From IMG/VR virus record IMGVR_UViG_3300044981_000152, positions 35,221 to 99,220 of that record: 64,000 nt of DNA, one strand, 5' to 3'. Below are positions 34,125 through 51,676 of the stretch, in pieces. A model generated the notes under the pieces. It was given only the letters and a program-made list of their open reading frames with translations, was not told the origin of the DNA and ran no database searches. Position 1 is the stretch's first letter, and every line of letters begins with the position of its first letter. The position numbers were made by a program, and so were the translations under genes. Source of the DNA: a virus.

Positions 34125-34251
34125 GGTGTCCCTCCCCCGGCGCGGGCTCCGGTGGCCGCGCCCTTAGGTAAAGGAAACGCCCGGAACGCGGCGAGGGCGC
34201 GCAGATTGCATGAACCTGACGTGGTCCCGTGACCGGGTTGTATCCGTTCCG

Positions 34252-35118
34252 CTAGGCCGTCCGCAGGTCGTCGAGCGCCCGCCGGATGATCGCGGCGGCG
34301 TCGCCGCCGATACTGGCCGCCTCGCGCAACTGCCCCAGGTACTTCTCGTATCGCGCCACCTGATCGCCCTCGGCCAGCTCCAGCTCGCGCTCGATCGACT
34401 CCACGATGACCAGGTCGTCGTACAGCCGGAAGCCGCTGAGCGGGTAGACCGGCAGCGCGGCCTCATCCGGGATGATCCCGAGCTCCAGCGCCGACAGGCC
34501 CGAAGCGGACATCAGCCACGTGAGCTGCCCGGCCAGCACGGGGACGGACACGACGCGGGAGCGCAGCGCGGCCTGGAGCATGATCACCGTGACCTGGTGG
34601 TCATGCCCGGACAGCACCCGCTGGCGCTGCAGCCGCACGTCGACCATCCGCTCGAGCTCGTCTTCGCTGGCGCCGAAGCTGAGCGGCCCGCACGGCAGGC
34701 GCAGCATTTCCCGCGCGTACTCGGCGGTCTGGACCAGGCCCGAGATCATGGCAGGCTGGAACTCCGCGATCCGGGCCGACTGCGCCTCGTAGGCCAGGAT
34801 GTCGGCCTGCACGCCATCAGCCCCGGCCTCGCGGAAGGCGTCCTTCCATGTCACGGACTCGACGCGCGCACTGCGGAGCATCCCGAGCAGTTCCGCGACG
34901 GCCTCAGTTGAGGCACCCGTGGCGGCGGCCCACGCAGTTACGTCCTCTTCGCCGGGGAGCTGCTTGAAGGTTTCGATCTTCGACACCTTGGACTGGCCAG
35001 CGGCCCCCCATCCGAGCATCCCGGCCAGGCGGGCACCACTGAACCCGGCACCCACCCGGAGCGCCTTGAGCGCCTCAGCGAGCCGCCTGCGCTCGCGCTG
35101 GTAAGCGGGTGTCGTCAA
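34252..35118 (-). CDS. XRE-family regulator with DUF5753 domain
   Basis: Product of 288 residues with an N-terminal HTH (ALRVGAGFSGARLAGML, then SKVSKIETFKQLPG) and a C-terminal DUF5753 sensor domain (IAEFQPAMISGLVQTAEYAR, RMVDVRLQRQRVL). Proteins of this type, related to WhiJ in Streptomyces, usually work with a small partner encoded alongside. Here the DUF6879 and 72-aa genes precede it in the same operon. No defects seen. Confidence 0.9.
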   Translation of the reverse strand: MTTPAYQRERRRLAEALKALRVGAGFSGARLAGMLGWGAAGQSKVSKIETFKQLPGEEDVTAWAAATGASTEAVAELLGMLRSARVESVTWKDAFREAGADGVQADILAYEAQSARIAEFQPAMISGLVQTAEYAREMLRLPCGPLSFGASEDELERMVDVRLQRQRVLSGHDHQVTVIMLQAALRSRVVSVPVLAGQLTWLMSASGLSALELGIIPDEAALPVYPLSGFRLYDDLVIVESIERELELAEGDQVARYEKYLGQLREAASIGGDAAAIIRRALDDLRTA

Positions 35119-35128
35119 TCAGGCCCTC

Positions 35129-35698
35129 TCAGGACGCGGCCAGCAGTTCCCTGCGGCGCATGTAGTCGGCGTACGGGATTGCCCAGTGCAGGGCGGCGTC
35201 CCGCCAGTAGGCGTGACTGACGATCGCGCCGGGGTCGCTGACCTGCCTGATGTACTCGAAGCGGCCTTCGCGGTCGTACCGCATGACCCACAGGTCGCTG
35301 GAATCGAAAAGCCAGTAGTCGTCAAGAGTGCCGAGCGTGCCCAGGCTCGGCACCGGGGTCTCGCTGGCTGGCAGGATGCGGATGTCCTCGCCGGCCTTCA
35401 CGTTCGGCGGGTAGCTCCACTCCAGCTCATACCGCAGGTAGTCCGTCAGCGGCTCGTTCACCAGGTGGACGCGCTGGACGGTCTTCCCGGCCGCCGCAGC
35501 GTATTCGAGCATCGCGACCCAGGCGCTCTTGGCTTCGTCGCGCGGCCGCGCCCGGCCGGCCAGGAAGGCGCGGTAGGGCTCGATCTCGTAGCTCACGTCG
35601 TAGACCTGGAGCGTTTCGAGCCGGTAGGCGGTGTGCTTGAAGCTGGCGAACAGCGCGTCGAACTCCGGGCTGGTTACGTCGGTGATCCGCCTGCCCAT
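35129..35698 (-). CDS. DUF6879 protein
   Basis: The 189-residue product carries the DUF6879 pattern: FDALFASFKHTAYRLETLQVY at the start, SWVAMLEYA-like middle, RVHLVNEPLTDYLRYEL, and DDYWLFDSSDLWVMRYD near the C-terminus. This family is found almost only in actinomycetes next to XRE-DUF5753 genes. A partner role, perhaps antagonist or target of the regulator, is inferred from that context. Confidence 0.88.
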   Translation of the reverse strand: MGRRITDVTSPEFDALFASFKHTAYRLETLQVYDVSYEIEPYRAFLAGRARPRDEAKSAWVAMLEYAAAAGKTVQRVHLVNEPLTDYLRYELEWSYPPNVKAGEDIRILPASETPVPSLGTLGTLDDYWLFDSSDLWVMRYDREGRFEYIRQVSDPGAIVSHAYWRDAALHWAIPYADYMRRRELLAAS

Positions 35699-35700
35699 GG

Positions 35701-35919
35701 CTAGCCCCGCTGCGCGCGGATCTTGTCAGCCGCCCGGATGATGATGTCCGGGTTGAGGTAGACGGCCCGCTCGCCGGGCAGGACGTCGGGGATGCCCGCG
35801 AGCGTGCCCCCGTCGACTTCCTGGCCGAGCACGACGGCCATGCCGTCCTCGCGCATCCGCACCGAGGGGCATCCGCCGTTGCCGGAGTTGGCGTCTTTGG
35901 CTAGCAGGGTCGTCTTCAT
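35701..35919 (-). CDS. Small partner protein of the XRE/DUF6879 trio, 72 aa
   Basis: Starts MKTTLLAKDANSGNGGCPSV, followed by AVVLGQEVDGGTL and LPGERAVYLNPDIIIRAA. The layout is like short actinomycete proteins that sit before DUF6879 and XRE-DUF5753 genes, similar in style to DUF397. GGAACGGAG precedes the ATG. It is two bases from the DUF6879 gene, so they are in one operon. Confidence 0.78.
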   Translation of the reverse strand: MKTTLLAKDANSGNGGCPSVRMREDGMAVVLGQEVDGGTLAGIPDVLPGERAVYLNPDIIIRAADKIRAQRG

Positions 35920-36065: not shown

Positions 36066-36398
36066 ATGCACGATGCGGGCTTACGCTCAGAACAGAAGCC
36101 AACGGAGCGAACCGGAGCTGACTTGAGCATCCAGACGATCGCCGTGCAACGGCCGGCCGCCGACAAGCTCGTGCCCATCGCGGCAGCCTCGGCCCGGCTG
36201 GGCCGGTCAGTGTGGACGCTCAAGCGCATGCACGCAAAAGGCGAGCTGCCGGTCTTCATGGCCGGCGCCAACTGGCTCGTCCCCGAGAGCTTCATCGACT
36301 TGGTATTCGCGTCGATGCGACCCGGTCGCGCCGCCGACTTTGCGGAAGTGGCGCAGGCGTGGTTCGCGGCGAACACCCCCGAGGCGGTGGCGTCCTGA
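36066..36398 (+). CDS. Excisionase/MerR-like DNA-binding protein
   Basis: Product of 110 residues. The core (LVPIAAASARLGRSVWTLKR, then LPVFMAGANWLVPESFIDLV) has the winged-helix pattern of MerR-like excisionases and plasmid helper proteins. A TTG at 36123 is an alternative start. It leads the rightward transfer module. No integrase gene is next to it, so an excisionase role is uncertain and a regulator is equally likely. Confidence 0.65.
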   Translation: MHDAGLRSEQKPTERTGADLSIQTIAVQRPAADKLVPIAAASARLGRSVWTLKRMHAKGELPVFMAGANWLVPESFIDLVFASMRPGRAADFAEVAQAWFAANTPEAVAS

Positions 36399-36638
36399 TG
36401 CCCATTCCTCCCCGTCAGGTCCGCATCCTGCGCTACCTCGGCGACCGTCGCGCCGCGGTCACCGTCCGGGCGACCGCCCGAGCCCTCCAGATGAACCGGG
36501 ATGACACGAAGAACGCGCTCCGGCAGCTGGCAGACAAGGGGCCTCGTGGCCGCGGACCTGAGCACGTGGCCGATGACGTACGCAATCACCGACATGGGCA
36601 GCGCGGTCCTCGCCGCTGCCGCGCGGGAGCCGAAATGA
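36398..36638 (+). pseudogene. Frameshifted winged-helix protein gene
   Basis: Starts at a TGATG overlap. The first 47 codons (MPIPPRQVRILRYLGDRRAA, then MNRDDTKNALRQLADKG) give a winged helix. After a run of four G at 36538-36541 the frame changes; dropping one G lets it continue as LVAADLSTWPMTYAITDMGS and end in AREPK at 36638, a natural C-terminus for a MarR/PadR-like wing. The single-base defect may be a real mutation, a programmed shift or a sequencing error. Intact, it would be an 80-residue regulator. Confidence 0.7.
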
Positions 36639-36734
36639 CCCGCACCCCGAACAACGCGAACGCCCCGGTGCGTGAACACCGAGGCGCTGGCCAAGGCCGT
36701 CCCACCCGTAGCCCTACGAGAACGGAACAAGCCG

Positions 36735-36962
36735 ATGACCGCCACGATACACCCCGCCCGCGTCCGCAAGCCGAACCGCCGTCCGGCCGCCCTGCCCGAG
36801 TCCTGCCCGCCGCTGCCGCCCTTGACCCCCGGGCGGTCCGCCCTGCTGCTCGCCGAGCTCGAGGAGTCCTGCGCACGCCGCGGACTGCCCCCGGTCTCGT
36901 CGGAGATGAGCGCGATGGAGGCCGTCGGCACGATAGCGGTCCTGGACGCGAGCACGCGATGA
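36735..36962 (+). CDS. Small Pro/Arg-rich protein, 75 aa
   Basis: Begins MTATIHPARVRKPNRRPAAL, basic and Pro-rich, followed by a helical LLLAELEESCARRGLPPVSS. An upstream GTG at 36672 is possible. It lies in the chain of small genes before the coupling ATPase. Not recognised. Confidence 0.55.
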   Translation: MTATIHPARVRKPNRRPAALPESCPPLPPLTPGRSALLLAELEESCARRGLPPVSSEMSAMEAVGTIAVLDASTR

Positions 36963-36982
36963 CCGTTCCCCCGGAGCGGCCA

Positions 36983-37007
36983 CTCCCCCGGCCTCTCCGG
37001 GGGAGTA
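36983..37007 (+). terminator. 10-bp hairpin in the transfer operon leader
   Basis: ACTCCCCCGG (36983-36992) pairs perfectly with CCGGGGGAGT (36998-37007) around a 5-nt loop. It sits 16 nt before the next start codon and 5 nt before its ribosome binding site, so it may be a terminator, attenuator or translational control element. Confidence 0.5.
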
Positions 37008-37023
37008 CGGAAGGACCCGCGCC

Positions 37024-37533
37024 ATGCCCGCTTACCGAACCCCCGGCAGGTACATCAAGCCCTGCATCGTTCCCCCCGGAGAGGAGCCTGTGATGCCTCA
37101 GCACGGCACCTGGAAGACCACGGGCAGCAGCAGCGGCGTGGCCGTGCTGGCCGTGACAGCGCTCATTGTCGCCGCCTGTATCGGCCTCGGCGTCGGCGTG
37201 GCGAGGGCGGTCCCGGAACTGCTCCCGTGGATGATCACGGCCGGCGTCCTCATGTCCGCCACGGTGGTCGCGTATGCCGTCGTCGCGCTGCGGATCAAGG
37301 CGCGCGCCGTCGTGTACGCCGCAGACCGGGCGCAGCGGCAGGAGACCCGCGAGGCGCTGGCCCTGCAGCAGGCCCGGCAGGCGGCGGCGGTGCAGCACGA
37401 GCGCGCCCTGGAGATCGCCGCCGCGTCCGCCCCGAAGATCGTCATCGGCTCGGACCTGATCGCTGCCGCTGCCGCTGGGGCGCAGCTGCAGCCGCAGCGG
37501 GCCCAGATCATCCAGGGGCAGGTGCAGCGGTGA
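37024..37533 (+). CDS. Two-helix membrane protein with coiled coil, 169 aa
   Basis: GGAAGGA precedes ATG 37024; an ATG at 37093 with GGAG is an alternative. Two transmembrane helices (VAVLAVTALIVAACIGLGV and WMITAGVLMSATVVAYAVV) are followed by a long Ala/Gln/Arg coiled coil (RQETREALALQQARQAAA). It may be a membrane anchor of the DNA-transfer apparatus, judging by place only. Confidence 0.65.
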   Translation: MPAYRTPGRYIKPCIVPPGEEPVMPQHGTWKTTGSSSGVAVLAVTALIVAACIGLGVGVARAVPELLPWMITAGVLMSATVVAYAVVALRIKARAVVYAADRAQRQETREALALQQARQAAAVQHERALEIAAASAPKIVIGSDLIAAAAAGAQLQPQRAQIIQGQVQR

Positions 37534-37982
37534 GCACCCCCTGGGGGCGCCCGATCCGGCCCCGCCACTGGGCGAACCGCCAGCTCACCCAGGTCGCAGA
37601 CCGGAGGGCCAGGATCGCCAGATGGGCCCGGCTGCACGCGACCGGGAACCGCCAGCGGCTCTCCAACTGGCGGAACCGCCGCACTATCGAGCGCGGCAGG
37701 CGTCCCCGCATCACGCAGGCAGCCGATGCCGCCCGTTCGTCGCTGCCGGTCTACCGGGACCGGATCAACCGGGCCACGGGCCGCCCGCACCGGGACGACG
37801 CGCAACTGGGGCGCACGTCGGACCGGTCGCTGGCCCGGATGGCGCAGCAGCGCCAGATCCTGCGCGCGGCCAATGACGGCCCCGCGCGGACATCGCTCGC
37901 CCGCCAGTTCGCCGATGCGGGCGTCACGGTCACCCGCGAGCGCGGGAACGACGAGCCGCCGCGCGCAAGGAGGTCACGGTGA
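37530..37982 (+). CDS. Very basic protein, 150 aa
   Basis: GTG start overlapping the previous stop. Over 20 percent Arg by eye, with Trp/Asn repeats at the start (RHWANRQLTQVADRRARIAR) and Arg/Gln helices after. Suited to binding DNA or the membrane surface. Second gene in the chain leading to the coupling ATPase. Family unknown. Confidence 0.6.
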   Translation: MSTPWGRPIRPRHWANRQLTQVADRRARIARWARLHATGNRQRLSNWRNRRTIERGRRPRITQAADAARSSLPVYRDRINRATGRPHRDDAQLGRTSDRSLARMAQQRQILRAANDGPARTSLARQFADAGVTVTRERGNDEPPRARRSR

Positions 37983-38284
37983 GCATCACCCCCGACCGGG
38001 ACGCCTGGAACCAGCTGACCCGCGACGAGCAGACGGCACGTATCCAGCGGCACGTCGCCGCGCACGGCCGGTCCATGACCGACCCCGAAGCCCGCCAGGC
38101 GGCAGAACGCTACATGGCTGACCGCCAGGGTAAGCGCGTCCGGCAGGACGCCCGCGAGGGCACGCGGGCCCGGCTGCCGATCCAGTCCGACGCGGAGAAG
38201 CTCATGGCCGACCAGGGGCGCCCCCGCGAGGAACTCGTCGAGATGGAGCGGACGCGGCAGCGCAGGGCGGGGAGGTCGCGGTGA
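37979..38284 (+). CDS. Basic helical protein, 101 aa
   Basis: GTG start in a 4-nt overlap. Starts MSITPDRDAWNQLTRDEQTA and is helical and charged throughout, ending in RRAGRSR. Like its neighbours it ends in an Arg-Ser-Arg tail. Function unknown. Confidence 0.6.
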   Translation: MSITPDRDAWNQLTRDEQTARIQRHVAAHGRSMTDPEARQAAERYMADRQGKRVRQDAREGTRARLPIQSDAEKLMADQGRPREELVEMERTRQRRAGRSR

Positions 38285-38556
38285 ACATCAGGTGGCCATG
38301 GGTCAGCCAGGACGAGCGGGATGAGGTCCGCCACTACCTGGGCCGCGGCGGTGCTCTCGCCCGGGGGATGCGCCAGGCTGCGAGCTGCGACCTGCCCGCA
38401 AGCACTTGGCACCCCGGCCCGGTACCGCCGGTCCGCCGGGTCCTCAGGCAGGAACGGGAACTCACTGCGCGGCGGGCCGATCCGGCCGCCGACCTGGAAC
38501 GCGCCAGGACTCTTGCCCGCGCGATGGACCAGTCCCTTAGAAGGAGGCCACGGTGA
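38281..38556 (+). CDS. Basic protein, 91 aa
   Basis: Begins MNIRWPWVSQDERDEVRHYL, followed by a Pro-rich central part and a basic helix (RRADPAADLERARTLARAMD). GTG start, overlaps both neighbours. Function unknown. Confidence 0.6.
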   Translation: MNIRWPWVSQDERDEVRHYLGRGGALARGMRQAASCDLPASTWHPGPVPPVRRVLRQERELTARRADPAADLERARTLARAMDQSLRRRPR

Positions 38557-38741
38557 CCGCCGAGCGCACTTCCGAGGTCACGATCATCCAGCGGCACCTT
38601 GAGGCACCCGAGACCATCGAGCGCGGCCCGCGCGTCACGATGGCCGAGTTCTTCGAGAACCGCGCCGGGTCGACGGACCGCATGCTCAGGCTCCGGGGCC
38701 AGCGAGCGCAGGACCCCGGCCGCCAGGGGAGGTCGCGATGA
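38553..38741 (+). CDS. Small charged protein, 62 aa
   Basis: Starts MTAERTSEVTIIQRHLEAPE; mixed charge, ends QGRSR. Its last bases, GGAGGTCGCG, supply the ribosome binding site of the next gene. Function unknown. Confidence 0.55.
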   Translation: MTAERTSEVTIIQRHLEAPETIERGPRVTMAEFFENRAGSTDRMLRLRGQRAQDPGRQGRSR

Positions 38742-38932
38742 GAGAATCCGATAAGACCGACCCCGCATACCAGTCCCCGGAGCGGATCGAACGCGGTAGC
38801 CGGGCCCTGGAATGCGAGTACTGGGAGAATGTGCGCGACCGCGACGACGACCTAGAGCGGCGCGTCCGCGAAGGTGTAGTCAAGGAACGCGCCGCCATCG
38901 CCCGGAACCGCGCATTGGCGAGGTCCCGGTGA
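38738..38932 (+). CDS. Small charged helical protein, 64 aa
   Basis: Starts MRESDKTDPAYQSPERIERG; shares PE-x-IERG with the 62-aa protein before it (PETIERGPRV), so the two may be diverged copies. Ends in RALARSR and overlaps the coupling ATPase gene by 4 nt. Confidence 0.6.
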   Translation: MRESDKTDPAYQSPERIERGSRALECEYWENVRDRDDDLERRVREGVVKERAAIARNRALARSR

Positions 38933-40749
38933 CCGCCCGTACGTCCGCCAAGCCCGCGAAGCGCCAGCGCGGCAAGGTAGAGAAGGCCGCGCTCCGCTGG
39001 GCGCTCATCACCGCCGTGTTCCTGGCCCCCGCCCTGGCGCGGCATTCGCTGCTGCTGGCGGTCCTGGGCGTCCTGGGCCTGCTCGCGCTCGCCGCCGTCC
39101 GCCTGGCCGTCGCGATCGGCCGCTACCGGCAGGGCGGGAAGGCCGCGATGCGCCGCCGCGCCAAGCACCAGGGCTGGGCGGGCTGGCGAGAGATCCGCAA
39201 GAAGCTGTCCCCCGCCGCCGCCCGGCGCAGCGCCCGGCTCCTCTACCCCGCCGTCCACCCGGCCCGCGTTCACGTCACCATCGGCCGCACCAAGGGAATC
39301 GGCCCGGTCAAAGGCAAGGTCATCGCGGGCACCCGGGCCGACACGTACCTGCTGCTCGCGCCGCCGCAGACGTTCAAGACCGCGCTGCTGTCCGACATGG
39401 CGGCCGGGGCCCCCGGCGCGCTGCTGGCCACCTCGAGCCGGGGTGACATCTGGCGGCACACCGCGATGACCCGCCCGGGGGGTGCGCGCGTCCTGAACGC
39501 ATCGGGCACCCCCGGCATCCCGAACGACTTCGCATGGTCCCCCGTCCCCGGCTGCAAGGACCCCGTGGTCGCGACCCGCCGCGCCGCCGACCTGATGGCC
39601 GCCTCCCCCCGCGATCCCGGCGGCCGGGACGCCTGGCACGAGGACCGCGGCGGCCGGATGCTGCGGTACATGCTGCACACCGCGGACCTCGTCGGCGCGG
39701 ACATGCACGATGTCAGGGACTGGATCCAGAACGCCCTGTCCGGCCACGCGCTGCACATCCTCGCCGCCGAAGGCAGCAGCCCCCGCTGGGCCAATGCCCT
39801 GGAATCGCTGATCCGGGGCAGCGGCGAGCATATCGGCTCGGTGATCACCTCCGCCGAGGCGGCGCTCGGCTGGATGGATGACCCGGTGATGGCCGCCGCC
39901 GCCTGCCCGGCCCCCGGCGACGGGATCGACGCCGCAGAGTTCGTGACCGGGAACGGCAGCGTGTACCTGATCAGCGAGGACCGCGAGCAGTCCTCCCCGG
40001 CGCCCTATTTCGCCGCGTTCACCGCCGAGGTGTTCTGCCAGGCCAGGGCCCGCGCGGAACGGTCCGGGGGCCGGCTCCCGGTCCCGCTGACGCTCGCGCT
40101 GGACGAGCTCCCGACCATTGTCCCGGTCCCGTTCCACAAGTGGTCCTCTGTCGCCGCCGGGTACAACATCTGCCTGATCGGCGGTGTCCAGTCCCCGTCG
40201 CAGCTCCCCGAACGGTGGGGGGAGAAGAATGCCAGGACGATCTGGACCAACTCCAAGATCAAGGTCATCGGCGGCGGGTTCACCGGACCGGACGACCTGG
40301 AAACCCTGTCCAGGCTGTGCGGCGACGTTGACACCTGGCATCAGGCGGACGACGGGACGCGGGTGCACGAGACCCGCCGGCTGTGCCCGCCGGAGCGGAT
40401 CCGCCTGCTGGACGCCGGCAAGTGGGAATGCCTGGTCCTGCACCGCAACGCCCGCCCGGTCGTGGCGACCATCACGCCCGTGTGGGACCGCCCCGGATAC
40501 CAGCCTGCCGTGGTGCCTGTACCGTCCGCGGTGCCGCAGCGGCCCGCAGTCACCCCGGCACCCGCCAGGGTCATGGTTCCCGCCCGGATGCAGCGCCTCA
40601 TCGCCACGCCCGTCCGGTCCCGGCCTGCGCCCCGCGCGCTGCCCCCGCGCCGGGCGATCGGGGCACCCGCCCGTCCCGCTCTCGCCGTCGACACGAAAGG
40701 GGAGGTGACCCTGTGGCCAGCAGCGAAGGCGGCCTCTTCCGCCGCCTGA
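38929..40749 (+). CDS. VirD4/TraG-like coupling ATPase
   Basis: Membrane ATPase expected to bring DNA to a transfer channel. The 606-residue product has a basic N-terminus, two transmembrane helices (about 22-65), then an ATPase domain: a Walker A-like APPQTFKT (144-151), HRGGRMLRYMLH-like helix, LYLISEDRE-like VYLISEDREQ, Walker B LALDELPTI (389-397) and GGVQSPSQLPERWG in the TraG C-terminal block. Walker A lacks the usual Gly-Lys-Thr (Phe-Lys-Thr instead). The C-terminus is Pro/Arg-rich. Such proteins mark type IV secretion-like conjugation in actinomycetes. Confidence 0.82.
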   Translation: MTARTSAKPAKRQRGKVEKAALRWALITAVFLAPALARHSLLLAVLGVLGLLALAAVRLAVAIGRYRQGGKAAMRRRAKHQGWAGWREIRKKLSPAAARRSARLLYPAVHPARVHVTIGRTKGIGPVKGKVIAGTRADTYLLLAPPQTFKTALLSDMAAGAPGALLATSSRGDIWRHTAMTRPGGARVLNASGTPGIPNDFAWSPVPGCKDPVVATRRAADLMAASPRDPGGRDAWHEDRGGRMLRYMLHTADLVGADMHDVRDWIQNALSGHALHILAAEGSSPRWANALESLIRGSGEHIGSVITSAEAALGWMDDPVMAAAACPAPGDGIDAAEFVTGNGSVYLISEDREQSSPAPYFAAFTAEVFCQARARAERSGGRLPVPLTLALDELPTIVPVPFHKWSSVAAGYNICLIGGVQSPSQLPERWGEKNARTIWTNSKIKVIGGGFTGPDDLETLSRLCGDVDTWHQADDGTRVHETRRLCPPERIRLLDAGKWECLVLHRNARPVVATITPVWDRPGYQPAVVPVPSAVPQRPAVTPAPARVMVPARMQRLIATPVRSRPAPRALPPRRAIGAPARPALAVDTKGEVTLWPAAKAASSAA

Positions 40750-41438
40750 TGACGGCGATGATGCGGTCCCTGGCCGACGCCGCCGCCGACCGCGCCGGCC
40801 GCGCCGCGAGCGACGTGAGGAACCAGGTCGCCCACGGCGGCCGGTTCAACTGCATCTCTTGCGGCAAGAACTGCTGGACCGCCCGCGGGATGAACGCCCA
40901 CTTCCTGGCCGGGCACCTCCGGGAGGTCCGCAACACCCGCAAGGGCATCCCGAAGGACCGGCGCCGGGCATGGCTGCACGCCCGCGGCTGGCGGGAAGCC
41001 GCGGGCCTCATCGACGAGAAGGGCCACCGGACGGCCCGGGGCCGGTCCCGCCCCGCGGTGATCCCTGCGGACGGCCGGGCGCACGTGACCCACGGGCAGC
41101 TGCGCCAGCTCCACAAGCACGACCGCGACCACCAGAAGGCGCTCCGGCATGAGGCCAGGGCGACCCGCCACCATGCCGCGGGCCGTCACGGCAGGGCCGA
41201 GGCCCGGACCCGCAAGGCCGAGGGCCTGCGGTCCCGCTGGCCCGAACGCTCGCGCCCGGCCCCGGCTGCCCGGCCCGCACCGCAGCCTCACGGCAACGGC
41301 ACCAGGCCTGTACCCGCCCGCACCCCCGTCCTCGACGGCAGGCCGCTCCGCGAGCCGGGCAACGGCAACGGACGCGCTCCTGAACCACCCCGCCCGCCCG
41401 CCCGCCCTGAGGGCAGGCTCGCCCCACGCTCTCGCTGA
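40713..41438 (+). CDS. C2H2-like zinc finger, basic protein
   Basis: GTG 40713 preceded by GGGGAGGT. The product of 241 residues has a finger CISCGKNCWTARGMNAHFLAGH near residue 50 (written as C-x2-C-x12-H-x4-H), then a long Arg/His-rich, probably helical stretch and a Pro-rich tail. It overlaps the coupling ATPase gene by 37 nt. Likely DNA-binding; could help recognise transfer DNA. Confidence 0.68.
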   Translation: MASSEGGLFRRLMTAMMRSLADAAADRAGRAASDVRNQVAHGGRFNCISCGKNCWTARGMNAHFLAGHLREVRNTRKGIPKDRRRAWLHARGWREAAGLIDEKGHRTARGRSRPAVIPADGRAHVTHGQLRQLHKHDRDHQKALRHEARATRHHAAGRHGRAEARTRKAEGLRSRWPERSRPAPAARPAPQPHGNGTRPVPARTPVLDGRPLREPGNGNGRAPEPPRPPARPEGRLAPRSR

Positions 41439-41446
41439 GGAGACGA

Positions 41447-42265
41447 ATGACCGTGACCCAGGCTGAAGCCGAGTGCCCGCAGACGTGGCTGGCCCGCCGC
41501 CTCGCCGCGGGCAGGCCAGCGGAGGTATGGGCCCCTGTGCCGGGCTGGTACTACGAGCAGATCGGCCTCCCGGTCCCCGCCGTCCCGCACCAGGTGTCCG
41601 ACCAGGGCCGCATCCGCAACGCCAAGGGCGAACCGCTGCGCGACCGGCCCAACGGCCGGCCGAAGGAACTCCCGGCCAGCCAGCAGTACCGCATCATCAA
41701 CCTGTCCAGCGGCGGCCGGAAGGTCACGGTCCCCGTCCATCACGTCATACTGGCGTGCTTCTGCCCGGAGGACCGGGGTGACCGGGAGGCTCGGCACCTC
41801 GGCCGGGGCGACGCGAACCGCGCGTGGAACTGGCATCCCGAGGGCGTCACCTGGGGCGACCGGCGGGAGAACGCCTTCGACAAGCCACCGGAGGTCCGGT
41901 CAGCCGCCGCCGCCAAGGCCCGCGCCGCGCAGACCGCGGCCGGCGCCGCTCACCCGCCCCGCCCGACGTTCGAGTGCCGCAACTACGCGCGGTGCGGCGG
42001 CATGGCCCTGAACGAGGGAAGCCGCTGCGCCTGGTGTGTCGTGCAGGTCGGGAAGGATGCCGCGGTGCTGCTCCGCCTGGGGATGCCGTCGCAGGCCGTC
42101 GGCGAGTTCTTCGGCCACACGTCAGGCGACTGGGTCCTGCGGCTCGCGATCGAGCACGGGGGATGGACGGGCAGCAAGGCCGAGGCCCGGATGCAGCACC
42201 CGACGCTGCGGCAGCGGGCCCGGCTGGTGCTGGCCAAGCGGAGGATGATAGGGCACCCTAAGTGA
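41447..42265 (+). CDS. HNH endonuclease-like protein with NUMOD4-like start
   Basis: Product of 272 residues. The N-terminus (VPGWYYEQIG, then HQVSDQGRIRN) resembles NUMOD4, a DNA-binding module of homing endonucleases. The HNH core follows: PVHHVILACF (98-99), EARHLGRGDANRAWN (H117, N124) and VTWGDRRENAFD. A C-terminal Cys cluster (CRNYARCGG, CAWC) and an HTH-like end come after. It could be a mobile nuclease that has entered the transfer operon, or part of its processing. Confidence 0.75.
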   Translation: MTVTQAEAECPQTWLARRLAAGRPAEVWAPVPGWYYEQIGLPVPAVPHQVSDQGRIRNAKGEPLRDRPNGRPKELPASQQYRIINLSSGGRKVTVPVHHVILACFCPEDRGDREARHLGRGDANRAWNWHPEGVTWGDRRENAFDKPPEVRSAAAAKARAAQTAAGAAHPPRPTFECRNYARCGGMALNEGSRCAWCVVQVGKDAAVLLRLGMPSQAVGEFFGHTSGDWVLRLAIEHGGWTGSKAEARMQHPTLRQRARLVLAKRRMIGHPK

Positions 42266-42491
42266 TCGTGCTACGGAACGTGACGGCCGGCGCTCGGCTG
42301 CCTGTCACTACCTGTGACACCGGAAACCAGGCACCTGTAACATTCGCCCCGTGCGTTACAGGTGGAAGGGGGCAGCCCGGGCGGGTGGCTGACGCCGTAG
42401 GCGGCGGCTTCCCCCGCTTGGCCAGCCGTAACGGAGCGTCACAGTCATCCGGGCGAGTGCCGACCGTGCCCGGTGCGGGGGGTCACGGACG
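42266..42491. other. Intergenic gap before traB-like gene
   Basis: These 226 bp hold no gene. They contain two inverted repeats (see next entry) and are the longest gap within the transfer module. This is a candidate place for an origin of transfer, promoter or clt-type site. Confidence 0.5.
42303..42364. repeat. Two inverted repeats upstream of the FtsK-like gene
   Basis: TGTCAC-N5-GTGACA lies at 42303-42319. CACCTGTAAC (42332-42341) and GTTACAGGTG (42355-42364) are a perfect 10-bp inverted repeat with 13 nt between. The sites share TGT-A-C elements. They suit an operator for a GntR-type repressor or a transfer recognition site. Confidence 0.6.
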
Positions 42492-44501
42492 GTGATCGCA
42501 TTCGGGGTCCTGGGCTTCGCCGTAGCCGCGGGCATCGCCGCGGTGCTGGTCCTGGTCGTCCGCGCGGCGGCTCACGGGCTACGCCGGCACCCGCTGCCCA
42601 AGCTCGCCTGGCGGTGGTTCACCGGCCTGCCCTGGGACGGGAAGGACCCGGTACCGGACGCGACATGGTTCCACCGGGGCTCCGAGGAAGCCAACGTGAA
42701 CGGCCGGCGGATCCGGGCGTTCTACTACCGGTGCCGGCTCGCGCGGACCTGCATCCGGCTCAGCGAGACCGCCGGAGCGTGGCTGGCCGCCGTGCTGCTG
42801 GCCCTGTGGGGATCCGCCTCGTCCGTGTCCCTGGGGATCACGGTGGCCGCCGTGCTGGTGATCGCCATCGGGCTGGCCGGGTGGACGGGGGCGCGGTGGG
42901 TGCGGGTGCGGATGGCGGACGTGAAGCCGTCCGCGCAGCTGGTCCTGTACCGGTCGCGTGCGGTGGCGGCGCTGCCGGGCCCGGCGCGGTGGGAGGCCAG
43001 CCGGGAACTGTACCGGCCGATGCACTACCGGGCGCACCATCACGCGGGCATCCCGCCGTCGTTCCGGCCGCGGCGGTGGATCGAGATCGAACCGGACCGG
43101 CAGACGGTCAGGCTGACCATCCCGGACGGCCTGGACACCAGCGGGAAAGCCCTGGCGGCCCTGCATCAGGTGGTGACGCAGACGGTGTTCTGCGACAACA
43201 CCCCCGACGTGACCCCGAAGATGGCCAGCCGCCGCCGCCAGCTGGTCTACACGGCGGCCAAGCCGCCGCCCCCGCAGCTGGTGCTGCTCGACGCGGACCC
43301 GGACCGGGGGGCGCCGGGAATCCGGCACCTGATCGAGGCAGCGAAGTGGCATGAGATCGTCCTGGGGTACGGGATCGGCGGCGAGCCGGTGGTCCGGTCG
43401 CTGGGCAAGGCGGTGCCGCACTGGGGCCTGTCCATGCCCAGCGGGGACGGCAAGTCGGTCTGCGCGGAGCTGATCGCCGGGCAGCTGCTTTTCCACGGCG
43501 CGGTCTGCCTGATCCTGGACTACAAGGTGTTCTCCCACCCGTGGGCGCTGTTCGCGATGCCGAACGTGTCCTACGCGGGGACCACGGAGCAGATCCACCT
43601 GACGCTGCTGTGGCTGAAGCAGGAGGCCGCGGAGCGGAAGGAACGCGGCCTCCGGTTCATCCAGCTTGACGGGACGATGGCCGGCGACGTCGGCCCGGTG
43701 ATCTTTGTGGTGGCCGAGGAACTGAACGCCACGATCATCGAGCTGAAAGCCTACTGGCGGTCGATCGACGGGACGGGGGAATCCCCGGCGGTCGAGGCGC
43801 TGCGGGAGATGCTGTTCACCGGGCGGGCGCTGAAGATCCACTTCCTGCTGATCGCGCAGAAGCTGACGGTGGCGGCGCTCGGCGGCAAGGACTCCGCAGC
43901 GCGGGAGAACTGCGCGGGGATCCTGATGGGCGGGTCAGCGTCGGCCCCGTCGTGGAAGATGCTCGCAGAAGACGTGGAAAGGCCCGCTAAGCAGTCCGTG
44001 CCAGGGCGGCATTTCGTCGTCGACCACGGCAACGTGACGCTCTGCCAGGTCGCGTACCTGAACCCGGCCGGGCACGCGGGCCCGGAGGCCCGGCAGCTCG
44101 CCCTGGCGGGCGCGGTGACGGCACTGCCGGAGGGTATCCCGCTGGGGATCGCGAAACCTATAACCCAGGCTGCCGGAATGTCCGGAATGCCCGATGTTAC
44201 GGGAACAAACGGCAGGCTGGAGCTGGAAACACGACCTGTCGGGGCATCTGTAACGGACGCGCCCGCCCAGCTCCTCATGGGGATCACGGAGGCATGCGAG
44301 AAGGGCATCCTCCCGTGCTCGCGGGGGACCGCGCACATGCGCCGTGCCCGCGACGAGAGGTTCCCCGCGCACGTCGAGGGCGCTGAAGGGCCGCGCGGCG
44401 AGAAGATGTACGTCGCCGGGGAACTCCACGAGTACGCCCGGATCGCGTGGGGCGAGCCGGATGACACGGGCCGCCGGCGGCCGGTGCGGGTAGCCGCGTA
44501 A
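42492..44501 (+). CDS. FtsK/TraB-like DNA translocase
   Basis: In actinomycete plasmids and integrative elements a single FtsK-type protein (TraB, TraSA) moves double-stranded DNA between hyphae. The 669-residue product has an N-terminal transmembrane helix (1-25), two more around 93-131, Walker A MPSGDGKS (315-322), Walker B VCLILDYK (338-345), VIFVVAEELNATI and LLIAQKL, and a C-terminal winged-helix-like part (AHMRRARDERFPAHVEG) that may read the DNA site. GTG start with GGGGGGT 8 nt upstream. Confidence 0.85.
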   Translation: MIAFGVLGFAVAAGIAAVLVLVVRAAAHGLRRHPLPKLAWRWFTGLPWDGKDPVPDATWFHRGSEEANVNGRRIRAFYYRCRLARTCIRLSETAGAWLAAVLLALWGSASSVSLGITVAAVLVIAIGLAGWTGARWVRVRMADVKPSAQLVLYRSRAVAALPGPARWEASRELYRPMHYRAHHHAGIPPSFRPRRWIEIEPDRQTVRLTIPDGLDTSGKALAALHQVVTQTVFCDNTPDVTPKMASRRRQLVYTAAKPPPPQLVLLDADPDRGAPGIRHLIEAAKWHEIVLGYGIGGEPVVRSLGKAVPHWGLSMPSGDGKSVCAELIAGQLLFHGAVCLILDYKVFSHPWALFAMPNVSYAGTTEQIHLTLLWLKQEAAERKERGLRFIQLDGTMAGDVGPVIFVVAEELNATIIELKAYWRSIDGTGESPAVEALREMLFTGRALKIHFLLIAQKLTVAALGGKDSAARENCAGILMGGSASAPSWKMLAEDVERPAKQSVPGRHFVVDHGNVTLCQVAYLNPAGHAGPEARQLALAGAVTALPEGIPLGIAKPITQAAGMSGMPDVTGTNGRLELETRPVGASVTDAPAQLLMGITEACEKGILPCSRGTAHMRRARDERFPAHVEGAEGPRGEKMYVAGELHEYARIAWGEPDDTGRRRPVRVAA

Positions 44502-45406
44502 TGAACGCAAACGACGGAAAAGATCAGCGAAACGGGACAACTATGGACGCCATGCCTACCGCACCAGCACACGCCAAGCCCGCCCGCCGCGACAGCCTCC
44601 TGCCGGTCCTGGTCCTCATCCTCGCCGGGGGCCTGCTCGAGGTGTGGGCGTCCTGGCTCCAGATCGGCGCCGTGTCCGGCTTCCCGCACCTGGGCCCGGT
44701 GACGACCGGGTGGATCCTGCCCGTGACCGCCGAAGCCTACTGGGGATCCGCTTTGTGGGCGTGGCTCGTGGATCCGGCCGGCCCGAAGTCGAGGCTGTTC
44801 GCGATGTGGTCGGCCGCCGCGGTGTTCGCGCTGAGCCTGGCCGGGCAGGAGTCCGACCACCTGATGGCCTTCGCGCACCGCACCGTCCCGCCTGTCGGGG
44901 CGGCGATGCTGCTGACCGCGCTGCCGCTGACCGCGGTCGCGATGGGCGCCATCCTGATCCACCTCCGCCAGGTCGACCGCGCCGAAGCGACGGAGGCTGA
45001 CGCGATGACGGCAGCGGCTGCTGAACTCGCCGCGCTGCGGGTACAGCTGGAGGTGCAGCGGGCGGCCGTTTCTGCGGCGCAATCCGAGCGCGACGAGGCG
45101 CAGCAGCATGCCGCAGAATTGCAGGCTAAGACTGATGTGCTCACCCGCAGGCTGGCCGCCGCTGCGGGTGTCAAGAGGGGTCGCAAGCCGCCCGCAAAAC
45201 GAGGCTCCGCTGCGCCCGCAACCAAGGTCCCCAGGAACGTCGACGTGCAGACCGAAGCGCTCGTCATCCTCGCCGCAGAACCGGACATCACCGGAGAGGA
45301 ACTCGCGGAGCGCGTAGGCCGCAGCGAACGGTGGGGGCAGACCTTCAAGAAGAACCACGCCCACCCGCCTGCAGGGCCGGCTGAGCAGACTCAGGAGACA
45401 TCATGA
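44501..45406 (+). CDS. DUF2637-type transfer membrane protein
   Basis: Product of 301 residues. Several transmembrane helices occupy 30-155 (LLPVLVLILAGGLLEVWASW, TGWILPVTAEAYWGSALWAW, MLLTALPLTAVAMGAILI), followed by a coiled coil (about 160-215) and an HTH-like end (EPDITGEELAERVGRSERWG). This is the architecture of DUF2637/Spd proteins which stand next to traB in actinomycete conjugative elements and support spread in mycelium. Overlaps the traB-like stop by one base. Confidence 0.82.
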   Translation: MNANDGKDQRNGTTMDAMPTAPAHAKPARRDSLLPVLVLILAGGLLEVWASWLQIGAVSGFPHLGPVTTGWILPVTAEAYWGSALWAWLVDPAGPKSRLFAMWSAAAVFALSLAGQESDHLMAFAHRTVPPVGAAMLLTALPLTAVAMGAILIHLRQVDRAEATEADAMTAAAAELAALRVQLEVQRAAVSAAQSERDEAQQHAAELQAKTDVLTRRLAAAAGVKRGRKPPAKRGSAAPATKVPRNVDVQTEALVILAAEPDITGEELAERVGRSERWGQTFKKNHAHPPAGPAEQTQETS

Positions 45407-45726
45407 TCGAGATCTACGGCGCATCCGATGACCTGATCGAGGTCGAAGGCTGCGAAGGCGCGGACGAGTTCGGCGCCGACGGCAAAGGCTGCTGGCAGGC
45501 TGATCTGATCGCCCCGGACGGCGGGGCGATGCGGATCCGCGCGGAGTACGACCCGGATGGCTCTGGCTGCTGGGTGATCTCGCTCAGCCAGGTTGACGAG
45601 TCAGCCCCGTTCCCGGATTGGGGCAACGGCGTCAATCAAGCGGAGAACGGGTATTCGACCCTCGTCCGCATCGATGCGCCCGAGGGTACGCGGCTCATGA
45701 ACGTGAAGCCAGCGCCGCGGTCATGA
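45403..45726 (+). CDS. Hypothetical acidic protein, 107 aa
   Basis: Begins MIEIYGASDDLIEVEGCEGA and is beta-rich and acidic, with GCWQADLIAPDGGAMRI in the middle. ATG overlaps the stop of the DUF2637 gene. It looks like a small soluble domain of unknown type. Confidence 0.65.
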   Translation: MIEIYGASDDLIEVEGCEGADEFGADGKGCWQADLIAPDGGAMRIRAEYDPDGSGCWVISLSQVDESAPFPDWGNGVNQAENGYSTLVRIDAPEGTRLMNVKPAPRS

Positions 45727-46049
45727 CCACCGCGAACCCGGAACCGTCCGGCAGCACCTACCCGAGGAAAGCCGCGACCCAGTCGCACGTCAACCACAGC
45801 GTGTGCCTGTGGGAACCGCAGGAACACGAGATCAGCCTCGCCGTCGCGGTGGACCCGGCCGACGGGCCGCTGTTCCCCTTCGATGACTTCTGGTACCTCC
45901 AGCTGGCAGGCGCCATGCACATCGGCCTCGGCAGGCACCCGGAGAGCGTAGCCTCCGACGCGGCGGCGATGCGGAAGCTGGCCGCGCTGGCGTTGGAGGT
46001 GGCGGGGGAACTGGAGCGCCGGGCGGCGGAGCAGAAGGACGGCGGATGA
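45723..46049 (+). CDS. Hypothetical protein, 108 aa
   Basis: Begins MTTANPEPSGSTYPRKAATQ; a beta-rich part (VNHSVCLWEPQEHEISLAVA) is followed by a helix (AAAMRKLAALALEVAGELER). ATGA overlap with the gene before. Unknown function. Confidence 0.65.
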   Translation: MTTANPEPSGSTYPRKAATQSHVNHSVCLWEPQEHEISLAVAVDPADGPLFPFDDFWYLQLAGAMHIGLGRHPESVASDAAAMRKLAALALEVAGELERRAAEQKDGG

Positions 46050-46267
46050 CGATCGATGAGGCCCGCGCGAACATCGGCCGTTTCGTCGAGTACCGGCCCC
46101 GCGACACGCCCGATGCCGGACCCGAGCGGGGCGTTATCGCCGCCGTCGGGCACGTCAAGGTGTTCGTGTGGCACGAGGGCCTGGACTGCTCGCAGGCAAC
46201 CGACCCGGCCGACCTGACGCTGGCGGCGGGGGAAAGCGCAGCGAGGGAGGATCACGAGGATGGCTGA
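46046..46267 (+). CDS. Hypothetical small protein, 73 aa
   Basis: Begins MTIDEARANIGRFVEYRP, then RGVIAAVGHVKVFVWHEG; looks like a small beta-barrel of SH3 type. Overlaps neighbours. Unknown role. Confidence 0.65.
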   Translation: MTIDEARANIGRFVEYRPRDTPDAGPERGVIAAVGHVKVFVWHEGLDCSQATDPADLTLAAGESAAREDHEDG

Positions 46268-46607
46268 GACCGGGACCCCGGTCCCGTGGGATGAGATCGA
46301 CCCGCAGATCGTCGCGGCGCTGCACGCGCTCGCTGACCACGAGATCGACACGTTCAGCTCCTGCCAGGGCGGCCCCGGCCATCCCGGGTACGGCGGCATG
46401 CCCGTGATCCTGTTCCACGGCGACGATCATGCCGGGTCGTGGGCGGTGTGGCTGCTGGAGACGCAGGGATTCAAGGTGCAGACGCTATCGCGGCACTGGG
46501 ACCTGAATCACGGCCTGCCGCGCGCGCCGTTCTGGCAGGTGACGCTCCGGACCCTGGAGCCGACAGGACCGGGACCGGGAACCATCCGGGTACGCGGCGA
46601 TGACTGA
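46260..46607 (+). CDS. Phage-type conserved protein, 115 aa
   Basis: Contains IDTFSSCQGGPGHPG and VILFHGDDHAGSWAVWLLE. The SCQGG-x-GH block is common in phage and mobile-element proteins, and the conserved Cys and His could form a metal or active site. Overlaps the previous gene by 8 nt. Function not known. Confidence 0.7.
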   Translation: MAETGTPVPWDEIDPQIVAALHALADHEIDTFSSCQGGPGHPGYGGMPVILFHGDDHAGSWAVWLLETQGFKVQTLSRHWDLNHGLPRAPFWQVTLRTLEPTGPGPGTIRVRGDD

Positions 46608-46824
46608 CTGTGACTGGTCCGAGCGCCGTCGTGTCGAGCGCGCAGTCACCGAGGCGTTCCGCCGGGCGGTCGAGGAGTCAGGGCTGCCGCCGCACCCGGA
46701 CGGCGAGTGCCCTGGACCGGACTGCCGGTGCGAGGAACTGGCCGATTCGATCGAGGCCCGCACTGAGGAACTGGCGGCAGCCAGGCTGGGCATCCCCGTC
46801 GCTGATCTGCGGCGAGCGACGTGA
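46600..46824 (+). CDS. Small Cys-containing protein, 74 aa
   Basis: Starts MTDCDWSERRRVERAVTEAF with a helical first half, then ECPGPDCRCEELAD, a compact Cys cluster, and a helical end. Overlaps both neighbours. Function unknown. Confidence 0.6.
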   Translation: MTDCDWSERRRVERAVTEAFRRAVEESGLPPHPDGECPGPDCRCEELADSIEARTEELAAARLGIPVADLRRAT

Positions 46825-47268
46825 TGAAGGCCAGGAGCGATTACGGCCCCCATCAGCTCGCAGACTTCCTCGGCACCTTCCACGGCTCGGTCGACCGGGC
46901 CCGGCTATTCGGGCTGCTGCCGGAACCTGACCGCGCGCGGGCGCTGGTCTGCTGCTGCCGCCGAGGAGATCCGTGGCCGGTGGCCGGAGATCAAGGCGGC
47001 AGTCGAGTGCATCGGCGCTCCCGGACTGGCAAAGCGCGGCTGGACCGAGGCGATGATCCGCGACCTGCTGGGCGATCCGGACCTGCGGACCGACAACCCG
47101 CACTACAAGACCGCCGCACCGAGACGGCTGTGGCGGCTGCAGAAGGTGGAGGCGGCCGAGGCCCGCCCGGAGTTCGCCTCGCGGAGGGAACGCGCTGCCC
47201 GCCAGTGCGCCGCAGCAGGTAAGGCGGCGGAAACCCGGAAGATCTGGAAAGCGCTAGGAGGTACCTGA
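46821..47268 (+). pseudogene. Frameshifted helical protein gene
   Basis: The first frame gives MMKARSDYGPHQLADFLGTF and LLPEPDRARA, then continues into Arg/Gly-rich noise. Skipping one base near 46940 gives WSAAAAEEIRGRWPEIKAAV, GLAKRGWTEAMIRDLL and a natural end at 47268 (KIWKALGGT). The join LLPEPDRARA-WSAAAA fits a pattern I recall from actinomycete proteins. A true mutation, +1 shift or assembly error are all possible. Restored length would be 148 residues. Confidence 0.7.
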
Positions 47269-47287
47269 TGCTGGCGGGCGAGGGACT

Positions 47288-47536
47288 GTGAGCAGGTGCC
47301 AGGCGGAATCACTGGACGGCCATGAGCACACCGGGGATGTCACCGAGTACGTGGGCATCTGCGTGCGAGGCCATGAACGGCGCGGCCTGGTCTGCGGCGC
47401 GTGCGCCAGGCCGCTGCGCGAGCGGGGGCCTGCGGCGGTGACCTGCGCCGAGTGCCCCGACGATGATCCCCGTCCGCGTATTCTCATGCTGGCCGAAGTC
47501 TGGGACGAGTGCGGGCTGGCGGGCGACGGGCGGTGA
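47288..47536 (+). CDS. Zinc-ribbon protein, 82 aa
   Basis: GTG start after GAGGGA. Cys pairs CVRGHE, CGACARPL and CAECPDDD suggest a zinc ribbon; the C-terminus is helical. Overlaps the next gene by 4 nt. Function unknown. Confidence 0.6.
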   Translation: MSRCQAESLDGHEHTGDVTEYVGICVRGHERRGLVCGACARPLRERGPAAVTCAECPDDDPRPRILMLAEVWDECGLAGDGR

Positions 47537-47706
47537 GCGCGGCAACCGATGCGAAGTACATGCAAGGCTGGGCTGACGGGAAAGCCGATAAAGATCCCGA
47601 CCCGGATGAGCTGGCCTACGGCAGCGACCGCCTCAATTCCTATGAGCGCGGCTATATCGATAGCGGCCACTCCGATACTCCGCTTTTGCGAGCGCGCGGC
47701 CTGTGA
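47533..47706 (+). CDS. Small protein, 57 aa
   Basis: GTG start in a GTGA overlap. The product begins MSAATDAKYMQGWADGKADK and includes YERGYIDSGHSDT; the Gly-Trp-x-Asp-Gly-Lys and Tyr-x-x-Gly-Tyr pattern resembles short phage proteins of unknown role. Confidence 0.6.
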   Translation: MSAATDAKYMQGWADGKADKDPDPDELAYGSDRLNSYERGYIDSGHSDTPLLRARGL

Positions 47707-48080: not shown

Positions 48081-49106
48081 ATGGTCCGCAAGTACGCCCC
48101 AGGGTACGACTTCCGTTCCAGTGAGTCCCTGTCCCAGCGTGACCGGGAACGAGACCAGCGGTCGCACCGGGCCAGCCCGCCGTCCCGGACCCCGCCCGCG
48201 CAGGAACCGGCCCCGGACACGCCTGTCGCGCTCGCCCGCCTCAACCCGCCGCTGAGGTCGGAACCCGGCGAGGACGGCAAGCACTCCTGTGCCCGGGGCG
48301 ACTGGTGCACGGCAAGCCAGTCCGTCACCGCCAACGGGGAGACGCGCCGCGTGCCGGAGCGCTGCTATCAGCCGTTCTGCCACCGCGACCGCCGCTGCCT
48401 TGAAACGGACCTGCAGCAGCTGCCCGCCCAGTTTGTCCATCTCGCCGCGGAGATAGGCAACCCGGTCCGCAACGGGCAGGTGATCCACGTGCCGTTCGGT
48501 CCCCGCTGCCCGATCCGCCTGGACGTGGACGCGCTGATGCGGGCCATCGAGGAGTCCCTGTCGTCCTGGCATGAGCGGGTCGCCGACGTGGACAGCCTCA
48601 GCTATCCGCTCACCGCCGATTCAAGGTTGCAGCGGCAGATGGTCGCCGTGCGCAACGCCGAGCGGGTCCTCATCCACCGGATCGAGCCGCTGCTGGCCCT
48701 CGGCCCGCAGGTGATGGAACGGACCCGCCGTGTCACCAGCGACCGTGACCCGAAAGGCCGCGGCACCGAGGACGTGCGGGAGAACGAGCCTCTGGACGGC
48801 GCCGACGCGGGCATGGAGATCTTCACCCTGCGCTGGCTGTGCCGCGCTGTCCTCGGCGAGACGAAAGCCAGGCCGGAGGAGCTGCTCGGCGTGCCGTGCC
48901 GGCGGGAGGAATGCGACACCCTGGCGCTGCGCCGCGCCGAGCTCCCCTCCGATCCGGGCGCCCCGGTGTGGTGGTCGGAATGCTCGGAGTGCGGAGACAA
49001 GCTCGCCGAGGAGGAATACCGGGACTGGACGGCCCGGTACGCCCGGTGGGCGCAGGCGCAGCAGAAGACTCCCGCCACCCTGGAGAACCTGCCCGGCGTG
49101 GCGTGA
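48081..49106 (+). CDS. Hypothetical phage protein before terminase genes, 341 aa
   Basis: A Ser/Pro/Arg-rich first 60 residues, then a Cys-rich part (CARGDWCTAS, CYQPFCHRDRRC), a long helical middle (VDALMRAIEESLSSWHERVA) and a C-terminal zinc knuckle pair (CRREECD, CSECGDKLAEEE). I recall related proteins near the terminase genes of actinobacterial prophages. CACAAT lies 6 nt before the ATG. Possibly a structural or DNA-binding protein; no function known. Confidence 0.7.
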   Translation: MVRKYAPGYDFRSSESLSQRDRERDQRSHRASPPSRTPPAQEPAPDTPVALARLNPPLRSEPGEDGKHSCARGDWCTASQSVTANGETRRVPERCYQPFCHRDRRCLETDLQQLPAQFVHLAAEIGNPVRNGQVIHVPFGPRCPIRLDVDALMRAIEESLSSWHERVADVDSLSYPLTADSRLQRQMVAVRNAERVLIHRIEPLLALGPQVMERTRRVTSDRDPKGRGTEDVRENEPLDGADAGMEIFTLRWLCRAVLGETKARPEELLGVPCRREECDTLALRRAELPSDPGAPVWWSECSECGDKLAEEEYRDWTARYARWAQAQQKTPATLENLPGVA

Positions 49107-49202: not shown

Positions 49203-49496
49203 ATGCCCGGAGGCACGTTGCTGATCACCCGCGGCGATGGTCTCGTCGACCGCGACCAGGCCGCCGAGCTGTGCGGCGTCACCCCCGACGCGGTGACGAT
49301 CTGGTCGACGCGCGGCTACATGGTCACGGTCGCAGCCGACGGCGAGAAGCGGCGGGTGCGCAGGTTCCTGCCGGTCGCCAAGCGGGAAGGCCGCAAGCCC
49401 CTCTACAGCCCCGTCGAGTTGCAGAAGGCCGAGATCGCCACCCGCAAGCGCGGACGCCGCGAGGTCCGCCGTGACGCCTTTCCCGCCGCCGCCTGA
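49203..49496 (+). CDS. MerR-like HTH protein, 97 aa
   Basis: The product has a MerR/excisionase-like winged helix: VDRDQAAELCGVTPDAVTIW, then GYMVTVAADGEKRRVRRFLP and PLYSPVELQKAEIATRKRGR. Position before terminase fits the small DNA-binding proteins often found there in actinophages. The start is uncertain: ATG 49203 follows the T-run directly, while ATG 49179 or TTG 49218 are options. Confidence 0.7.
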   Translation: MPGGTLLITRGDGLVDRDQAAELCGVTPDAVTIWSTRGYMVTVAADGEKRRVRRFLPVAKREGRKPLYSPVELQKAEIATRKRGRREVRRDAFPAAA

Positions 49497-51499: not shown

Positions 51500-51676
51500 T
51501 CACTTCCCGAACTGCCTCAGCACCCGGAACAGCGTACGGGTGAGGTCACGGCGGATGAGGCGCTTGCCGAGCACGGCGGGACCGCGCTGCGCGGCCTGAA
51601 AGTCGCCGATTGAGCGGGCCAGCAGGTAAGAGTCCCGCCTGACCCGCTCAAGACCTGACCGCTTGCGTGCCATCAT
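51500..51676 (-). CDS. Basic protein of the antisense pair, 58 aa
   Basis: Starts MMARKRSGLERVRRDSYLLA, then RSIGDFQAAQRGPAVLGKRL and ends FRVLRQFGK. Very basic. I recall similar proteins in actinomycetes beside ribbon-helix-helix genes. It overlaps the RHH gene by 4 nt, so the two are one operon. It may be the toxin or effector of a two-gene system. Confidence 0.65.
   Translation of the reverse strand: MMARKRSGLERVRRDSYLLARSIGDFQAAQRGPAVLGKRLIRRDLTRTLFRVLRQFGK

Follow-up and report, generated by a model that had tools for sequence, protein, structure and literature searches.

Record IMGVR_UViG_3300044981_000152 of the IMG/VR database is a 99,220-base viral sequence in which genes resembling the DNA-transfer genes of actinomycete plasmids stand upstream of a phage terminase. 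We analysed bases 35221-99220 of this record (the window, 64,000 nucleotides, in whose coordinates positions are given unless stated otherwise). Its 36-48 kb region holds a putative transfer module with two ATPase genes and a gene for a membrane protein.

The first ATPase, encoded at 38929-40749 (+), is a VirD4/TraG-like protein of the type IV coupling protein (T4CP) family. It matches Pfam TraG-D_C (5.5e-20) and T4SS-DNA_transf (5.3e-10) and has one N-terminal membrane helix, an intact Walker B motif (LALDE) and a degenerate Walker A motif. The second, at 42492-44501 (+), is an FtsK/TraB-like double-stranded DNA (dsDNA) translocase of the pRL2-11 family, with a membrane N-terminus and a RecA core with a GKS P-loop. 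Its alignment with pRL2-11/DUF87 proteins from Streptomyces plasmids covers 72% of the protein, and its nearest relatives in annotated records are plasmid proteins. A family profile built from a 24-member alignment finds as its best match in the PDB TcpA, the coupling protein of the conjugative plasmid pCW3 (8e-7), and the AlphaFold2 model (mean confidence, pLDDT, 78) matches FtsK motor domains and TcpA with E values of about 1e-14 to 5e-16. The C-terminal region looks like a DNA-binding helix-turn-helix (HTH), judged from the model and from a motif conserved in relatives. These results bear out the first-pass annotation, which had recognized both a coupling-type ATPase and a TraB-like pump.

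The membrane protein is encoded at 44501-45406 (+; alternative start 44543) and has a coiled coil and a C-terminal HTH. It had been annotated as a DUF2637 membrane protein, of which the membrane protein stands, but the Pfam DUF2637 model does not match the product. The same model matches the positional counterparts in two other viral contigs, G087 (3.7e-16) and G010 (1.5e-13), and the 44501 product resembles the G087 protein (4e-16, with the similarity in the C-terminal part), so that 'DUF2637-like' appears a fair label and 'DUF2637' a loose one.

Downstream lie the head genes already recognized in the first pass, together with a protease: a small-terminase-like DNA-binding protein (52036-52620, +; PHROGs match phrog_645), the terminase large subunit (52583-54289, +), the portal protein (54301-56265, +), the head maturation protease (60621-62564, +) and the major capsid protein (62715-64000, +; cut by the record end). 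The module is co-directional with them, and 44 of the 46 genes called from 36 kb to the window end lie on the + strand.

Conservation of the slot before the terminase

The gene order of the module recurs in other genomes, as the first-pass annotation had suggested checking. G010 and G087, both of metagenomic origin, keep the succession of VirD4, TraB-like pump, DUF2637 or DUF2637-like protein, DNA-binding protein and terminase. G010 (73 kb) additionally shares a DnaB/primase block, regulators and tail genes with the window phage. G087 (44 kb) shares the small terminase, and has a Mu-type portal and a capsid of a different family. Because G087 combines the same module order with this portal and capsid, the module appears to be tied to the slot and not to one head cassette. 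The VirD4 proteins of the two contigs are 44-47% identical to the window copy and the pumps 34-38%, and in a tree with homologues from plasmids and metagenome-assembled genomes (MAGs) the VirD4 proteins of the three phages group in a single clade (support 100/100), apart from the plasmid homologues. Together with the recurring order, these values suggest that the association of phage and module is old and no assembly accident. In the reverse complement of G010, the terminase large subunit matches in two reading frames (43588-45053; L061-L064), which may reflect a frameshift, an intron or an assembly error.

Our pattern-based scans were not exhaustive, and counts of relatives are lower bounds. 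We confirmed 149 terminase relatives in IMG/VR. Among the 42 whose records were searched as wholes, viral VirD4 proteins and a full-length pRL2-11-type pump turned up only in the window record and G010; in two bacterial MAGs VirD4 was matched on contigs other than that of the terminase. When viral contigs were scanned with the single sequence of either ATPase, no close relatives appeared, and alignments were required. Genes of the pump family are common in viral contigs, with 23 of the 45 IMG/VR records found to hold a pump also holding a PF04860 portal above cut-off. One viral-contig VirD4 match (L162) adjoins a 1461-aa open reading frame (ORF) where plasmids carry MobF, and was treated as plasmid-like.

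In three relatives (G064, G070 and G072) the slot is occupied by another FtsK-type ATPase followed by a DUF2637-like protein. The ATPase of G070 has a MarR-like C-terminal domain, and a profile of the three finds their homologue pZL12.71c, a protein of the Streptomyces plasmid-phage pZL12, at 45.9 bits. The cultured temperate Streptomyces phage VWB encodes a DUF2637 protein (gp24, 1.2e-35; L171:8845-10161) some way upstream of a portal-like gene, with no recognizable pump; VWB gp25 was considered as the pump and found no support.

The window VirD4 has no match in PHROGs, its only match among the 50,697 phage records of INPHARED is a marginal one to a 5.7-kb faecal contig, and our literature search found no description of a VirD4-family protein in tailed phages. 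The pump matches only Streptomyces phage Dagobah in INPHARED, over a short FtsK-like stretch.

Genome, integration and regulation

The genome of the element is circular (or circularly permuted) and about 99,076 bp long. The ends of the record overlap by an exact repeat of 126 bp, joining them makes the major capsid ORF continuous across the junction (473 aa), and the genes at the opposite end of this record are those that come after the capsid gene in relatives. The exact repeat is followed by 18 bp (the last 18 bp against bases 127-144) with seven mismatches, most of them at third codon positions of the capsid gene, which points to strain variants within the sample.

Besides tail genes, the first 35 kb of the record encode a tape measure protein, a GH25 lysin, a DNA methylase, a tyrosine integrase and an excisionase-like HTH protein. 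The gene set of a temperate tailed phage is thus complete (terminase, portal, protease, capsid, tape measure, lysin, integrase and excisionase), with a single integrase (PF00589, 2.1e-17) and a single excisionase (HTH_17, 1.8e-6) in the record. The phage attachment site (attP) lies just downstream of the integrase (about 34146-34190 of the record, G000; 1 kb before the window start): 42 bp there match exactly the 3′ end of an intact tRNA-Thr(CGT) from another viral contig, which also holds a TraB-like gene (the source of L017). Integrase and attP together point to integration. The exact attP sequence is common to four other viral contigs; it was sought without a match in the genomes of two MAGs with related terminases. 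Neither an integrase nor a second attachment-like site was found in the 36-48 kb module.

Several regulators stand around the module. Upstream, on the opposite strand, is a cassette of an HTH/DUF5753 regulator of the Sco1979 family (34252-35019, −; 3.3e-19), a DUF6879 protein (35129-35698, −; 1.2e-50) and a small third member that is DUF397-like by eye (35701-35919, −). Cassettes of this kind also flank plasmid transfer modules: one lies opposite the VirD4/DUF2637 operon of the Pseudonocardia plasmid pPA12743CP and another adjoins the pump gene on a linear plasmid of Pseudonocardia. They are common in actinomycetes, and the link to transfer is therefore only suggestive. The first-pass label of a phage immunity switch for these genes is accordingly doubtful. 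A divergent pair of HTH regulators (24848-25168, −, and 25338-26024, +), which stands at the head of the leftward early operon and is matched by divergent homologues in G010, is more likely to be the immunity switch. A GntR-type regulator is encoded at 31103-31390 (+); many relatives, and pZL12, have GntR homologues upstream of their TraB-like genes.

A replication-initiator-like gene of the HTH_36 type (12473-13375, −) contains, at about 12923-13100, five iteron-like copies around GGTGCAGATTCTGCGGGG. It is probably a lambda-O-like origin, in which the repeats would act as iterons. G010 likewise has a five-copy repeat (3646-3833 of its reverse complement), beside helicase genes. At 5875-6534 (−) the window encodes a WhiB-family regulator, homologues of which precede the pump slot in G064 and G070.

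The rightward operon opens with a small putative HTH_17 protein (36123-36398, +; a weak match, E 0.041, below cut-off) and includes a small protein with two predicted membrane helices (37093-37533, +). VirD4 is followed by a basic protein of 241 aa (40713-41438, +), matched in G010 and G087 by one similar in size and charge only, and by an HNH endonuclease with a NUMOD4-like motif (41447-42265, +), near the place of which both contigs also have HNH-type genes. Between module and terminase stand a DNA-binding protein (48081-49106, +; phrog_1568), conserved there in relatives, and a small HTH-like protein (49218-49496, +) whose position is conserved. Two small genes at 51500-51948 (−) oppose the operon just before the terminase, possibly as a toxin–antitoxin-like pair; homologous genes lie close to the terminase in relatives (L078, L080 and L085).

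Conjugation functions and known systems

The functions that accompany VirD4 in conjugative plasmids were not found. Searches of the VirD4 phages for a relaxase (TrwC/MobF or PF03432) were negative, with plasmid controls TrwC-positive, and those for a VirB4-type ATPase gave nothing beyond a match below cut-off, at the P-loop of the pump itself. With no relaxase and no VirB4, conjugation by a classical type IV secretion system (T4SS) is ruled out. No feature resembling an origin of transfer (oriT) was found. Pfam scans of the window genes found a DnaB helicase and an HTH_36 initiator, and met no RepSA, RepAM or Prim-Pol replication protein among the best 25 of 27 families, a set with no RepSA-specific Pfam model. 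One plasmid, NZ_CP149448 (L005), combines MobF, DUF2637 and VirD4, is typed as non-mobilizable and has no VirB4 (PF12846) match in its whole record; it may represent a minimal or unusual transfer system.

An element both packaged and transferred by contact, which the first-pass annotation had considered unusual, has a precedent. The plasmid-phage pZL12/ZL12 (GQ919031) is, like the window phage, a circular record (90 kb) with tailed-phage genes and an integrase, and it reportedly transfers by conjugation. Its FtsK-like gene 71c, gene 72c and the membrane protein gene 73c immediately precede the terminase and share its strand, with a GntR gene nearby, in the same slot as the module here. We infer that these three are its transfer genes. 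It differs from the window phage in having no annotated VirD4, an FtsK-like protein only remotely comparable to the window pump, and a ParA partition gene, which the same test did not detect in the window record.

Related arrangements occur in plasmids. pRL2 (NC_007927) and similar Streptomyces plasmids encode a translocase of the same family (28-35% identity) with an adjacent DUF2637 gene; they have no virion genes, and their order of DUF2637 then pump is reversed in the window phage. In pPA12743CP (NZ_AP018921), the opposite-strand regulator cassette is followed, as in the window, by a rightward operon of DUF2637 and a homologous VirD4, about 34-38% identical to that of the window; this plasmid differs in having a MobF relaxase and, in the stretch seen, no virion genes. 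Actinomycete integrative and conjugative elements (AICEs) and actinomycete plasmids transfer dsDNA by a single FtsK/TraB-type protein with no T4SS (PMC3218068). AICEs of the pSAM2/pMEA type share with the window phage a tyrosine integrase at a tRNA and an FtsK-type transfer protein, whereas the phage has complete virion genes and a DnaB helicase with an HTH_36 initiator instead of RepSA/RepAM. Phi-Non1 of Nonomuraea gerenzanensis, which its authors likened to pZL12, is a plasmid-phage found both circular and integrated at a tRNA 3′ end (PMC5431353); it differs in size (59 kb) and tRNA (tRNA-Val). All but two of the P1-like phage-plasmids lack a relaxase or oriT (PMC10879196). Plasmid-type transfer genes in a phage were already known from pZL12, and what appears new here is the composition, an orphan VirD4 with neither relaxase nor VirB4 beside a pRL2-11-type pump.

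Interpretation of the module

On balance, we favour reading the region as an accessory module for DNA transfer carried by a temperate actinomycete siphophage, with a pump that would move phage dsDNA across septa or between hyphae. Its single tyrosine integrase would insert the phage into tRNA-Thr(CGT) at the 3′ end, and the phage would excise as a circle and package its genome. The slot directly upstream of the terminase is used by several large actinophages and pZL12 for an FtsK-type pump and a small membrane protein. In lysogens or after excision, the membrane-anchored TraB-like translocase may bind circular phage DNA through its C-terminal HTH and drive it across septa or into neighbouring hyphae, assisted at the membrane by the DUF2637-like protein. 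The HTH/DUF6879 cassette and GntR may keep the operon silent. The VirD4 homologue, a putatively plasmid-derived partner kept in three phages, probably aids the pump or recruits DNA, and with relaxase and VirB4 absent it could not alone drive classical type IV transfer. We hold with moderate confidence that the pump is the active part and VirD4 auxiliary.

Several observations count against this proposal. All three VirD4 phages come from metagenome assemblies. Most terminase relatives lack both ATPases as searched, and the module therefore seems dispensable for the phage core. The pump product alone has no Pfam match and does not pass the FtsK_SpoIIIE model, which its relatives score weakly. 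Its direct homology to pZL12.71c, at E 2.6e-4 with a 4-row profile, disappears with a 24-row profile and is not claimed. No clustered 8-mers resembling clt repeats were found near the module, although clt sequences vary. The Walker A motif of the window VirD4 reads APPQTFKT where homologues have GK[ST], with phenylalanine (TTC) at residue 149 in place of the P-loop glycine. A single sequencing error is unlikely, because TTC is at least two base changes from any glycine codon, and the rest of the ORF is intact; the ATPase may therefore be weak or dead. With this substitution and the lack of relaxase and VirB4, the first-pass view of VirD4 as a working conjugative coupling protein is not supported.

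The strongest alternative, which we judge unlikely though worth serious consideration, is that the pump serves the phage within one mycelium or cell, segregating its DNA through closing septa or into spores in the manner of FtsK/SpoIIIE and passing nothing to other individuals. The compartmented hyphae of filamentous hosts, the presence of chromosomal FtsK among the closest solved structures, the co-direction of the operon with late genes and the lack of a relaxase or oriT-like feature would all fit such a role. The nearest annotated relatives of the pump, however, are plasmid proteins and its best PDB profile match is a conjugation protein; plasmid transfer modules have membrane proteins and regulators of this kind; and pZL12, with its reported transfer, has an FtsK-like gene in the same slot.

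It is improbable that VirD4, either by itself or with the module, counteracts other elements, by blocking or hijacking the conjugation of resident MobF plasmids (fertility inhibition, or mobilization with a helper relaxase) or by excluding superinfecting DNA. Its plasmid homologues do sit near MobF relaxases, which the phages lack, and the degenerate Walker A of the window copy would suit a dominant-negative decoy, but the G010 and G087 copies keep a normal GK[ST] P-loop, and the gene is always found with the pump and DUF2637-like genes. Far less probable still is a prophage merely adjacent to a separate conjugative element, each with its own attachment sites, or a chimeric contig: metagenome assembly and a GC content of up to 0.745 around 40-43 kb would allow it, but the record is circular with one integrase, excisionase and attP, and the same order stands in two independent phage contigs.

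A broader version of the transfer proposal is more tentative. It is possible that a group of actinophages routinely spreads in two ways, as virions and by pump-driven dsDNA transfer through the mycelium, from one conserved slot in which pZL12-type pumps or VirD4 with pRL2-11-type pumps replace one another. The idea is directly testable in a comparative set made up of three phages with VirD4, three with the alternative pump and the cultured relative pZL12. Phages and conjugative elements are usually classed apart by their mode of movement, and TraB-type transfer, which uses no relaxase, is invisible to relaxase-based surveys. Provided that the slot is functional, spread without host lysis or extracellular barriers could be open to many soil actinophages, which could carry linked genes between hyphae.

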